From assembly GCF_900104035.1 (NCBI RefSeq), contig NZ_FNIT01000002.1:434001-498000 (forward strand): a stretch of DNA of 64,000 bases, given 5' to 3'. Numbering within the stretch: position 1 is the stretch's first letter; the number at the start of each line of letters is the position of its first letter. This DNA comes from Aureimonas jatrophae (GTDB lineage Bacteria > Pseudomonadota > Alphaproteobacteria > Rhizobiales > Rhizobiaceae). The position numbers and the translations under genes were made by a program. Below are positions 37,909 through 46,475 of this stretch, one piece after another. Under the pieces are notes generated by a model that was given only the letters and a program-made list of their open reading frames with translations, had not been told where the DNA came from and did not search any database.

Positions 37909-39222
37909 TCAACCGATGGTCTCGATCGCCGAGGCGATGGAGAGAAGGCGCGCGTCGCAACCGGTGCGGCCCGTCAGCTGGAGCCCGACCGGCAGCTGCT
38001 CGCTCCATCCGCAGCCAAGGCTGATGCTCGGTTGGCCCGTCATGTTGGCCAGGCCGCTGGCCAACAGCTCGCCTTCCTCGCCCTCGACGAACGGCGGGTC
38101 TTCGGCAGGCGCGACAAAGGGAACGCTCGGCGAGACGAGGACATCGACCCGGTCGAAGCAGCGGTCCGCCTCGAGCGTGATCGCGCGGCGCAGCGTCAGG
38201 GCGCGCAGGTAGTCGATGCCGCGCGAGGCGAATCCTGCCTCGATTTGGGCACGCGTGCCGGGCGCATAGCCTGCGGCATTGGCGGCATGCCGTTCGGCAT
38301 GAACGAGCGCGGCTTCCGGTAGCAGGACCTCGACCAGTGCCTGGTTGACCTCCCGGATGCCGGGGAGGTCGATCTGCGTCAGGGTCGCCCCGGCTTCCTC
38401 CAGACGAGCGAGCACTTGATCGACGGAGGCGCGGACACCGCTTGAAACCACGGGCGCCTCGAAATGGTGGCGCACGAGGCCGATCCGCAGGCCTTGCAGG
38501 GGAACCGGATGCAGCGTGATGGGCCGGCCGGTGAGGCAGGCAAGCGCGAGTGCGGCATCGGCTACCGACCGCGCCAGCGGCCCCGCGTGGTCGAGCGTCG
38601 GGGAGAGCGGAAAGACGCCGTCGAGCGAAACCAGCCCGAGGCTCGGCTTCAGGCCGACGATGCCGCAGTAGCTCGCCGGAATTCGAATCGAGCCGCCCGT
38701 GTCGGTTCCGATGCTGAGCGGCACGATGCCCGCCGCCACGGCCGCGGCCGAGCCGCCGCTGGAGCCGCCGGCCGTGCGCGAGGGATCGAGCGGATTGTTG
38801 GTCTGCCCGACCGCCGGGTGGGCGACGCCGTAGGCGTATTCGAGGCAGTTCGTCTTGCCGAGGATGACGGCGCCCGCCTCGCGCAGGCGCCGAACAAGCT
38901 CGGCATCGCGCGCGGCGATCCGCGGCGGGTGGGCACGCGTGCCCCAACCGGTCGGCGTGCCTGCGACGTCGATGATGTCCTTGATCGCGACCGGGATGCC
39001 GTGAAGCGGGCCACGGACGCGGCCGGCTCGACGCTCGGCATCGCGTTGCTCCGCCTCGGCGAGCGCGGCCTCGGCCATCGCGTCGGCGAAGGCGTTGAGG
39101 CGCCCGTCGAGCGCCTCGATGCGCTCGAGCGCCTCGCGCACGACCGCCGCCGACGTCGTGGTGCCCTGGCGAAGGGCGCGCCCCAGTTCGGTGACCGATG
39201 GAAACGCCGGTTGCTGCGTCAT
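37909..39222 (-). CDS. Amidase signature family enzyme
   Basis: This 437-residue amidase has the Ser-cisSer-Lys triad K81 (VAIKDIID), S154 ([11 protein letters not shown]) and S178 ([12 protein letters not shown]), with spacing as in fatty-acid amide hydrolase-type enzymes. It hydrolyses an amide, substrate unknown. No signal peptide is seen. It is the last gene of the peptide/amide operon with proline iminopeptidase, so it may process an imported plant-derived amide or peptide. Confidence 0.86.
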
Positions 39223-39275
39223 GACACCATCCCAAGCTCCGCCGACAGGAAGCCGACGGAGCCCGCCATATCATC

Positions 39276-40790
39276 TCAGTTCTTGCGCACGTCCTCCAGC
39301 CAGAAGCGGCCGAGCGGGTTCTGGTAGAAGCCGTCGATGTTGGCGCGCGTCACGTTGATGTAGGGGCTGTAGTAGAGGTCGATCCAGTTGACCTCGTCCT
39401 TGGCGATCTTCTGCAGCTCGACATACATCGCCTCGCGCTTGGCGGGGTCGGCTTCGGTGCGTGCCTTCGCGACGAGGTCCTTCACCATGTCGTTCCTGTA
39501 GCGCGTCATGTAGTTCATGTTCGTGTCGTGGCCGAGCACGAAGGTGGTCTTCTGGTCGGGGTCGAGGACGTCGTTGGTCCAGTAGCCGACGGCGACGTCG
39601 AAATCGCCGTTGATGAACATGTCCCACTGCGAGGCGGCGTCGACCTTGTTGATGTTGACGGTGACGCCCGCCTTGGACAGCTGCTGCTGCATCAGGACGG
39701 CGATCTGCTCGTCCACCTCGTCGCCGGCCTTGACGTTGTAGTCGAGGGCAAGGTCGGAAGCGCCCGCCTCCGCCAGCATCGCCTTGGCGCGCTCCGGATC
39801 GTAGGGGCGGCGCAGGTTGTCGGCGTAATAGTACAGCGCGCCCTTCGGGATGTAGGAATTGGCCACCTCGCCGATGCCGAAGGTGACGGCGTCGACGATC
39901 GCCTGCTTGTCGATCGCCATGTCCAGCGCCTGGCGCACCGCGATCTCGCCGAGCTTGCCCTTCTCGTGGTTGATGAGCAGCGCGTCCTCGCGGGTCGACG
40001 TGTCGAGCGAGACCTTGAGCTGTGGGTCCTGCTTCAGCTGCTCGACGCGCGAGAAGGGCACGAAGATCGCCGCGTCGAGCTGTCCCGCCTGCACGTTCAG
40101 CATGCGCGTGTTGTCGTCGGGCACCGAGATCCATTCGACGCCGTCGAGGCTGACCTTGTCGGCCTCCCAGTAGTTCGGGTTCTTCTCGAGGATCACGCGG
40201 TCGCCGCGGACCCACTCCTTGACCGAGAAGGCGCCGGACCCGATCGGCGCGGAGGCGAACTCCTCGCCCTTGGCCTCCACCACGGCCTTCGGCAGGACCG
40301 AGACGTTGGGCAGCGCCAGCGAGGCAAGGAAGGGGACCGACGGCTCCTTCAGCTTGACGACGAGCGTGCGCGGGTCGCTGGCCGTCGCCGTGTCGACGAT
40401 CGAATAGCTCGACGACCAGAGCGAGGTCGGATCGTCGCGGATGCGCAAGAGCGAGAAGGCCGCGTCCTCGGCGGTGACGGGCGAGCCGTCCGAGAACTTC
40501 GCGTCCCGCAGCTTGAACGTGTAGGTCAGCTTGTCGTCCGAGACGGTCCAGCTTTCCGCAAGGCCCGGCTCCAGCTTGGTACCGGTCTTGTCGACGCGCA
40601 CCAGCACGTCGAAGACGTTGGAATAGACCCAGTTGTCGACGTTCTGCGCCGAGGCGATCGGGTCGAAGGTCGTGGAGTCCTCGCGCCGGCCGATCGTGAG
40701 GACGCCGGCGGCCTCCGCGATCGAGGCGGTAAGCGACAGGGCGGCGAGCGCCGTCGCGGCCAGAAGGCGGGTCATGCGGGGTCGGGACAT
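39276..40790 (-). CDS. Peptide-type ABC transporter substrate-binding protein
   Basis: The 504-residue SBP_bac_5 protein has a signal peptide of about 27 residues (ending SIAEAAGVL). The conserved TIGRREDSTTFDPIASAQNV, LAESWTVSDDKLTYTFKLRD and AVRQALDMAIDKQAIVDAV segments are present. It delivers peptides or peptide-like amides to the Dpp-type permease. Its start overlaps the end of the upstream ATPase gene by 19 bases in another frame, an unusually large overlap indicating tight coupling. Confidence 0.9.
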   Translation of the reverse strand: MSRPRMTRLLAATALAALSLTASIAEAAGVLTIGRREDSTTFDPIASAQNVDNWVYSNVFDVLVRVDKTGTKLEPGLAESWTVSDDKLTYTFKLRDAKFSDGSPVTAEDAAFSLLRIRDDPTSLWSSSYSIVDTATASDPRTLVVKLKEPSVPFLASLALPNVSVLPKAVVEAKGEEFASAPIGSGAFSVKEWVRGDRVILEKNPNYWEADKVSLDGVEWISVPDDNTRMLNVQAGQLDAAIFVPFSRVEQLKQDPQLKVSLDTSTREDALLINHEKGKLGEIAVRQALDMAIDKQAIVDAVTFGIGEVANSYIPKGALYYYADNLRRPYDPERAKAMLAEAGASDLALDYNVKAGDEVDEQIAVLMQQQLSKAGVTVNINKVDAASQWDMFINGDFDVAVGYWTNDVLDPDQKTTFVLGHDTNMNYMTRYRNDMVKDLVAKARTEADPAKREAMYVELQKIAKDEVNWIDLYYSPYINVTRANIDGFYQNPLGRFWLEDVRKN

Positions 40791-45681: not shown

Positions 45682-45708
45682 GCCTCAATGTTCGGCAATG
45701 ATTGAGGC
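45682..45708 (+). promoter_or_regulatory. Hairpin that would sequester the LuxR gene's ribosome-binding site
   Basis: Arms 45682-45689 (gcctcaat) and 45701-45708 (attgaggc) are perfect 8-base complements with an 11-base loop. The right arm contains GAGG, the Shine-Dalgarno for ATG 45717, and the left arm carries the matching CCTC. In RNA this would hide the ribosome-binding site; in DNA it could be an operator. Confidence 0.5.
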
Positions 45709-45716
45709 GGCCACGG

Positions 45717-46475
45717 ATGGCCTTCGATGCCTGGGAGTTGGAGACGGCGCTGGACGAGGCGCCGACGATCGCGGCGAAGCTCGACGTCGCGCATGCCGTC
45801 ATGTCCGCGCTCGGCCTCGGCGCCCTGATCTACGACTACGCGCCGGTCGCCTACACGCACGACGGCGAGCTCATCACACCCTCCTTCTTCGGCATGCGCG
45901 ACGTGCCGCTCGACATGGTGGATCTCTGGTCGGCGAGCGGCTTCTACCAGATCGATCCGGTGCAGCATCTGGCGCTCAACAGCCCGCGTCCCTTCGTCTG
46001 GAGTTACCGCAAGAACGGCCGCACGGTGCTCAACCGGGCGCTCGACGCACGCCACGAGCCGGTCGTCTCCTATGTCCACGACACCGCGATCACCTGCGGC
46101 CTGACCGTGCCGATCCATCTGCGGGCCGGCGATTGCGCCACCTTCACTGGGATCCGCTACGACGCGCAGGACGACTTCGACCGCGACGGTGCCGAAATCC
46201 TGCCCCGCTTCACGTTGCTGGCCCACGCCGTGCACGCGGCGATCGAGCCGCTGTTCGGCGAGGCGGAGCGGCGCTCGCGCGCCGTACACCTCACGCCGCG
46301 CGAGCGGGAATGCCTGCGCTTCTCGGCCGAGGGTCTTTCGGCCAAGGATATCTCGGCGCGCATCCACCGCTCGGTTCCGACCGTGACGATGCATCTCAAC
46401 GCGGCGGCGCGAAAGCTCGACGCCCGCAACCGGGCGCAGATGATCGCGCGCGCCGCGCACTACAGGTTGTTGTGA
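45717..46475 (+). CDS. LuxR solo of the plant-associated (PipR/OryR/XccR-like) type
   Basis: The 252-residue regulator has an autoinducer-binding domain (about 15-165) and a C-terminal LuxR HTH (about 185-245: LTPRERECLRFSAEGLSAKD; RSVPTVTMHLNAAARKL). Aligned on the DP and W of the AHL pocket (D80, P81, W95), the residues equal to TraR W57 and Y61 are Met67 and Trp71. This is the exact substitution pair that marks solos responding to plant compounds instead of AHLs. No luxI gene is in the window. It faces pip divergently. ATG 45717 is placed by GAGG at 45704-45707. Confidence 0.88.
   Translation: MAFDAWELETALDEAPTIAAKLDVAHAVMSALGLGALIYDYAPVAYTHDGELITPSFFGMRDVPLDMVDLWSASGFYQIDPVQHLALNSPRPFVWSYRKNGRTVLNRALDARHEPVVSYVHDTAITCGLTVPIHLRAGDCATFTGIRYDAQDDFDRDGAEILPRFTLLAHAVHAAIEPLFGEAERRSRAVHLTPRERECLRFSAEGLSAKDISARIHRSVPTVTMHLNAAARKLDARNRAQMIARAAHYRLL

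Follow-up and report, generated by a model that had tools for sequence, protein, structure and literature searches.

A probable Pip-type amide-sensing operon with a LuxR solo and an apparently separately recruited amidase in Aureimonas jatrophae

Introduction

Positions 37909-46475 of a 64,000-nucleotide stretch (hereafter the window) of Aureimonas jatrophae contig NZ_FNIT01000002.1 (host assembly 4.59 Mb in 25 contigs) hold eight open genes: a luxR gene on the forward strand and, on the reverse strand, genes for a proline iminopeptidase-family hydrolase (pip), two permeases, two ATPases, a binding protein and an amidase. The locus is probably a Pip-type substrate-sensing operon, through which an amide would be imported, sensed by the LuxR protein and hydrolysed by Pip and the amidase. 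Orthology, gene order, operator conservation, the single operator match in the host genome and the placement of the regulator among the LuxR solos of plant-associated bacteria (PAB) were computed; we infer the class of the ligand, the transcription of the operon as one unit and the substrate of the amidase. Judged from sequence comparison, two features appear to be new: an Aureimonas-type clade without a second pip gene after luxR and with small or apolar residues at receptor positions 49 and 58, and an amidase gene that seems to have been recruited separately, directly after aapF, in three lineages, though it stands outside the conserved system. The locus bears on a wider question, namely what most PAB LuxR solos naturally respond to and why peptidases are their neighbours.

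The first-pass annotation had given the same gene content and order, and this is confirmed: all eight genes are open and belong to the Pfam or NCBIfam families claimed. It had also put the locus forward as an alphaproteobacterial version of such systems, which is no novelty. The alphaproteobacterial Pip/PAB locus is a known kind, with the layout present in the NesR-type locus of Sinorhizobium meliloti and Aureimonas among the PAB genera listed in PMC10134790 (published systems are cited throughout from extracts of the papers).

Gene organization and orthology to the Pseudomonas GM79 system

The aapF-type binding protein (39276-40790, reverse strand, 504 aa, SBP_bac_5) was compared with the sequences of the Protein Data Bank, where AapF of Pseudomonas GM79 (7kz8/7kz9) scored 727.8 bits and the next sequence 175.5. 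With 321 of 478 aligned columns identical (67%), it is, by sequence, an ortholog of GM79 AapF. The GM79 operon consists of aapA (a peptidase), two permease genes, two ATPase genes and the binding protein gene, is divergent from pipR, and has pipA after pipR (PMC4981722). The window keeps the divergent luxR and the aapA-aapBCDEF order, without pipA.

All operon genes lie on the reverse strand. The aapA-type pip gene (44633-45553, 306 aa) scores 269.3 bits with TIGR01250 (cut-off 167.65). It is followed by the aapB-type permease gene (first transmembrane domain, TMD1; 43685-44623; BPD_transp_1, 126.5 bits) and the aapC-type permease gene (TMD2; 42828-43688; BPD_transp_1, 102.4 bits; OppC_N, 28.3 bits), which overlaps the TMD1 stop. 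The two ATPases, both with ABC_tran and oligo_HPY domains, are of aapD type (first nucleotide-binding domain, NBD1; 41830-42831) and aapE type (NBD2; 40772-41833); we assigned their starts to the ATG over the preceding stop, that of TMD2 for NBD1 and that of NBD1 for NBD2, while the open reading frame (ORF) list has longer forms reaching 42975 and 42052, respectively. Given these starts, the ORF table shows overlaps at TMD1/TMD2, TMD2/NBD1, NBD1/NBD2 and NBD2/binding protein. An earlier description of seven overlapping genes therefore holds for four of the six junctions; the other two are same-strand gaps, of 9 bp between pip and TMD1 and of 53 bp between the binding protein and amidase genes. 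The only terminator-like site in 37700-46600 (43601-43585) lies outside the 53-bp gap. The gene 3' of luxR is a convergent 3-hydroxyisobutyrate dehydrogenase gene; a second pip was not found after luxR, and at 1e-10 the host genome gave no pip other than the one in the operon.

In GM79 the pipA response is abolished by loss of the transporter and raised by loss of the peptidase (PMC4981722). The proposal that the compound is first imported and then sensed inside the cell is well founded by homology, because the locus combines a PAB-type LuxR, an importer orthologous to that of GM79 and a lux-box-like operator.

The Pip/aap system was surveyed in further genomes, with up to 3 first-look candidates per genome scored for AapF, up to 4 for the amidase in the family and up to 6 for the PAB profile in the phylum. 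AapF was found at 1e-150 in 38 of 394 Rhizobiaceae genomes, and luxR adjoins the aap operon in 35 of these 38 loci (12 of Aureimonas type and 23 with pipA). The other three are L082, with a broken pip, L112, at a contig end, and L113. No pipA was seen in the 12 Aureimonas-type loci, among which L083 cannot be judged, since only 366 bp of contig remain beyond its luxR. Among 21 Aureimonas genomes AapF occurs in 7 and LuxR in 9, the two additional LuxR loci being L027 and L028 (described below), and the PAB profile matched 12 of 398 genomes drawn from the phylum at 1e-40. Searches of plasmid records (153 for LuxR, 150 for AapF, 12 for the amidase) gave a LuxR match in Aureimonas sp. AU20 (NZ_CP006370.1, 38306-38995).

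Variants of the layout were observed in several loci. In three Aureimonas-type loci (L094, L108, L110) the aapA-type pip occurs as two copies in tandem, which share 56-59% and 84-88% identity with that of the window, and no pipA follows luxR. In the Aureimonas loci L027 (4531-6352) and L028 (10186-11996), a 51% identical LuxR and pipA are paired with a different peptide-type importer (binding protein 25% identical), with a matching dyad nearby; the importer looks to have been swapped under a conserved receptor. No pip was found in the 18 kb around PAB row L213.

The LuxR solo

The pipR-type luxR solo (45717-46475, forward strand) encodes 252 aa from its ATG, with a possible alternative TTG start 15 bp upstream, and matches Autoind_bind (77.2 bits) and GerE (46.8 bits). 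Aligned with TraR, its Met67, Trp71, Asp80, Pro81 and Trp95 correspond to positions 57, 61, 70, 71 and 85, as had been read from the sequence alone, and Gly is retained at position 113; in TraR numbering, used below, the protein is M57/W61/Q73. GM79 PipR itself has Trp at both 57 and 61, not the Met/Trp pair (PMC4981722, PMC7301841).

A quick tree was computed from 72 rows, namely 61 PAB rows (tblastn at 1e-25, window included) and 11 others (TraR, SdiA, three weak same-order matches, two further LuxR of the host genome and four plasmid LuxR). The PAB references were Pseudomonas PipR-like, NesR-type and Rahnella rows, with Xanthomonas OryR/XccR left out. The PAB side was split from the 11 others with a Shimodaira-Hasegawa approximate likelihood ratio (SH-aLRT) value of 100*, and within it the window falls in a 16-row Aureimonas-type clade (99*); starred values need caution in this quick tree with its many long outer branches. 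The window LuxR is 49% identical to the Pseudomonas PipR-like row L209, 45% to the S. meliloti row and 25% (over 177 columns) to TraR. W61 and Q73 are present in 61 of 61 PAB rows versus 0 of the 11 others, which is no independent draw because the PAB rows were themselves picked by tblastn at 1e-25. Of the 61 PAB rows, 54 have M at position 57, four have W, two F and one L; all four W57 rows are Pseudomonas rows, in agreement with published PipR (PMC7301841).

That the protein is an ordinary regulator responsive to N-acyl homoserine lactones (AHL), or a ligand-independent one, is very improbable. Its retained D70, P71, W85 and G113 would suit such a regulator, but W57 and Y61 are replaced, Q73 stands where an aliphatic or aromatic residue is expected, and the tree groups it with PAB solos, apart from AHL receptors. 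Moreover, no AHL synthase gene lies beside luxR, and the host genome has no PF00765 match above cut-off (best 17.6 versus 24 bits, on another contig). An AHL-type regulator is rejected on these grounds. That sub-threshold match is in an ORF adjoining a second LuxR gene of the host genome (L032, 6789-8363). A LuxI read by eye beside the LuxR of host contig C10 was dropped, as Pfam gave no match at 0.001 and the genome search 17.6 bits.

Positions 49 and 58 belong to a patch of variability in PAB receptors, whose specificity patch consists of Q73 and L105 (PMC3821632). In the 16 Aureimonas-type rows position 49 is G, S or A and position 58 is V, A, S, G or I. Of the 45 remaining PAB rows, 43 carry K, E, Q, H or R at 49 and 35 carry H, R or Q at 58; in row L111 the letter at 58 is ambiguous. 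V is found at 105 in the window LuxR and in 15 of the 16 Aureimonas-type rows, and L in 37 of the other 45; residue 110 is I in all 16, and elsewhere M in 28 and L in 11 of 45. As small or apolar residues thus occupy 49 and 58 where most PAB receptors are charged or polar, the neutral pocket suggests that this clade may sense a ligand differing from that of GM79 PipR or of NesR.

The putative operator

A lux-box-like 20-bp dyad, AGCTATCAAAACTGATAGGG, of the form CT-N12-AG stands in the pip promoter at 45618-45637 (no strand assigned), with its centre some 75 bp upstream of the start of the pip reading frame; it is predicted to bind LuxR and is likely the operator of the window LuxR. The pattern occurs in 28 of 28 luxR-aapA divergent regions, from 28 of the 61 PAB loci, versus a shuffle mean of 0.245 of 28, where the regular expression was composed after the sequences had been viewed and the shuffles preserve single-base content only. 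With up to 3 mismatches allowed, the window dyad has itself as sole match in the 64 kb (expected 0.02), and there is one match in the whole host genome (4.6 Mb). Five loci with pipA (L029, L045, L046, L208, L217) carry a second copy on the luxR-pipA side, and the dyad is absent from L113, L121, L141 and L142, all without an adjacent PAB luxR.

A second element, ATGTGAACATG, was observed upstream of luxR at 45672-45682. Variants of it recur in Aureimonas-type regions and were not seen, by eye, in the other printed divergent regions; it is perhaps part of the luxR promoter.

Comparison with described PAB loci

The literature describes PAB solos accompanied by pip and by ABC importers (PMC10134790), and KoyR of Klebsiella has the same layout (PMC11064500). 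Compared with GM79, the window has no pipA after luxR and has an amidase gene after aapF, and its LuxR has M57 instead of W57 and, at 49 and 58, residues that are small or apolar. In Pseudomonas loci L209-L212 AapF is 94-95% identical to that of GM79, and the luxR-aapA regions of L209 and L210 (the two examined) contain the CT-N12-AG dyad. The NesR-type locus of S. meliloti Ak57 (L217, assigned to NesR by its species and gene layout rather than by a letter-for-letter comparison) likewise has an alphaproteobacterial M57/W61/Q73 LuxR between pip and aapA-F and a dyad, AGCTATAAGAAGTGATAGGT, of the window's operator type; it differs in its pipA, K49 and H58, ATPases annotated as one gene, lack of an amidase after aapF and a LuxR only 45% identical. 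OryR and XccR of Xanthomonas, by published description only, share M57/W61 and an adjacent pip; according to the extract of PMC4981722 their transporter is of APC type and no ABC importer is linked, whereas a table in PMC10134790 lists oryR with a peptide transporter.

Apparent recruitment of the amidase

The amidase-signature enzyme (37909-39222, reverse strand, 437 aa; PF01425, 342.6 bits) has Lys81, GGSSGGS at 152-158 and Ser178, which we take to be its catalytic motifs. It had been presented as part of the one operon; its distribution places it outside the conserved system. At 1e-80 it occurs in 3 of 394 Rhizobiaceae genomes and beside aapF only in that of the window; in G081 it and AapF are on different contigs, and in G101 AapF was not found at 1e-150. 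At 1e-60 it occurs in 2 of 21 Aureimonas genomes, the host and G017 (37-38% identity, no AapF), and gave no match in the six other Aureimonas genomes with AapF (five neighbourhoods read; that of G002 split over contigs). The amidase as a fixed member of the Pip system is rejected by this absence and by 37 of the 38 family loci, where it does not stand beside aapF.

The association is found elsewhere. Rhizobium sp. BG4 and WYJ-E13 carry pipA-luxR-aapA-F-amidase on plasmids (2 of 7 opened amidase neighbourhoods aap-linked, of 12 records). Genome contigs were scanned with the amidase alignment and two peptide patterns, and the best 80 of 124 retained; among these, six more Rhizobiales loci have the same arrangement (L117, L120, L123, L124, L127, L129), and Pseudooceanicola pacificus (L141) has aapA-F-amidase in a genome with weak LuxR matches only (1.4e-12 over 185-246 and 1.6e-11 over 62-242). 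In the tree of these amidases a single clade holds the eight Rhizobium rows and is itself nested within Rhizobium amidases that are not linked to aapF. L141 groups with rows from Rhodobacteraceae; the window amidase stands apart from both, its branching weakly placed beside Aurantimonas L118 and UR115 L134. Approximately unbiased (AU) tests, run after this quick tree had been viewed but with groups set by gene context, gave p-AU values of 1.7e-6 for the ten linked amidases together, 9.6e-5 for the window with the Rhizobium rows and 0.00135 for the window with L141. A common origin of the aapF-linked amidases is rejected (p-AU 1.7e-6), as are the two pairings of the window, and amidases of one subfamily appear to have joined aapF separately in three lineages.

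The Pip locus could be real and the amidase a bystander, a catabolic gene with another substrate that landed after aapF by chance. Its rarity (2 of 21 Aureimonas genomes, 1 of 38 family aapF loci) fits this, as does the position of its closest relative among the best 80 of 124 (Aurantimonas L118, 66%) in another cluster with a different importer, with Limimaricola L139 alike. A mere bystander is nevertheless less likely because of the three separate arrivals of one subfamily at the same place. Furthermore, of the ORF families found downstream of aapF in 58 loci (ORFs of 150 aa or more on the same strand, no further than 400 bp away), none but the amidase recurs across genera; two smaller sets are from same-genus genomes. 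In the window the amidase gene follows on the same strand after a 53-bp gap free of terminator-like sites. On balance we regard the bystander explanation as unlikely.

In L118 (4940-11341) and L139 (4985-11296) the amidase lies, as read by eye, with GntR-, creatininase-, ketopantoate reductase-, short-chain dehydrogenase/reductase- and M20 peptidase-like genes and a Dpp-type importer, a cluster that is possibly its older home. Aurantimonas CSK15Z-1 and UR115 hold the amidase and a PAB LuxR in one genome, apart. In a Rhodobacteraceae metagenome-assembled genome and a related one (L121, 10001-17956; L142, 10001-17923) an amidase of the subfamily immediately precedes a pipA-like gene and a different importer; a LuxR of PAB strength was found in neither genome (best 6.2e-12 and no match). 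Among open-licence PMC papers none was found that names an amidase in a PAB locus; the extract of PMC11064500 uses the term for a different pathway.

Proposed mechanism and biological meaning

AapB-F would import a small peptide-like amide, to be bound in the cytoplasm by the LuxR solo, and amide-bound LuxR would activate the divergent pip-aapBCDEF-amidase operon via the dyad at 45618-45637. Pip and the amidase, the latter an additional hydrolase of the imported compound, would cleave the amide bond, which would feed the cell and switch the response off, the kind of negative feedback put forward for PipA/AapA of GM79. Import followed by sensing and by shut-off through hydrolysis is the best account because of the GM79 mutant responses, the orthology and the amide nature of the GM79 effector, named HEHEAA (PMC7301841). 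HEHEAA is an N-substituted glycine amide of ethanolamine, and on chemical grounds hydrolysis of a similar ligand would yield ethanolamine and N-(2-hydroxyethyl)glycine. EutB is encoded in the host genome (4.2e-203), and released ethanolamine could therefore be used, a permissive argument only.

Several observations weigh against this account. Against a simple role of HEHEAA, a close homolog of AapF is reported not to bind it (PMC10134790), and the PAB solo PsrR of Kosakonia is unresponsive to rice root macerate, ethanolamine and HEHEAA (PMC7301841). No match to the dyad pattern was found in five loci with a PAB-type LuxR (L031, L213, L214, L215, L216), and the right half of the box is decayed in L021 and L024. 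In the Rhizobiaceae the window is the one locus of 38 in which the amidase adjoins aapF (L112 and some others being partial stretches), the aapF-amidase gap of L141 is 325 bp, and the 10 linked loci of 58 are no frequency, as searches with the amidase led to nine of them and the window itself makes the tenth; one of the 49 aapF loci picked without the amidase (window included) has it. The amidase subfamily often lies near other peptide importers as well, so that its closeness to an importer is unspecific.

A further reading overlaps the proposed mechanism and differs on what the signal means: the operon would be a general nutrient system for peptides and amides, with LuxR as local substrate sensor and plants as one source among others. 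In its favour are aap operons without a PAB LuxR (L141, and L113 at 4246-12131, with an IclR-like gene, read by eye, between its binding protein and ATPase genes), the single operator match in the host genome, and the response of GM79 PipR also to peptone and Ser-His-Ser (PMC4981722). Against it stand the tight linkage of the PAB LuxR (35 of 38 loci) and the published activation of OryR, PipR and XccR targets by plant extract, reported though not for every member (PMC7301841). We give it appreciable weight, short of an even chance.

More tentatively, the aap operon may at its core serve the catabolism of a small secondary amide, with diverse amide hydrolases added to it separately in different lineages (three amidase-signature enzymes and, at the end of the L113 operon, one isochorismatase-family hydrolase; PF00857, 120.3 bits), with the LuxR solo as a one-operon substrate sensor. 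The Aureimonas-type clade, without pipA, would have been retuned from a charged to a neutral pocket, and its effector would be a new member of that family of amides.

If true, the repeated capture of amide hydrolases by an importer operon would mean that what is imported is an amide and that cutting it is worthwhile; the added amidase would hint at the nature of the compound sensed. The locus supplies a set of proteins (binding protein, LuxR, Pip and amidase) and an operator for ligand finding, and ligand specificity could be mapped by setting the clade with the neutral pocket against PipR and NesR as a natural contrast.

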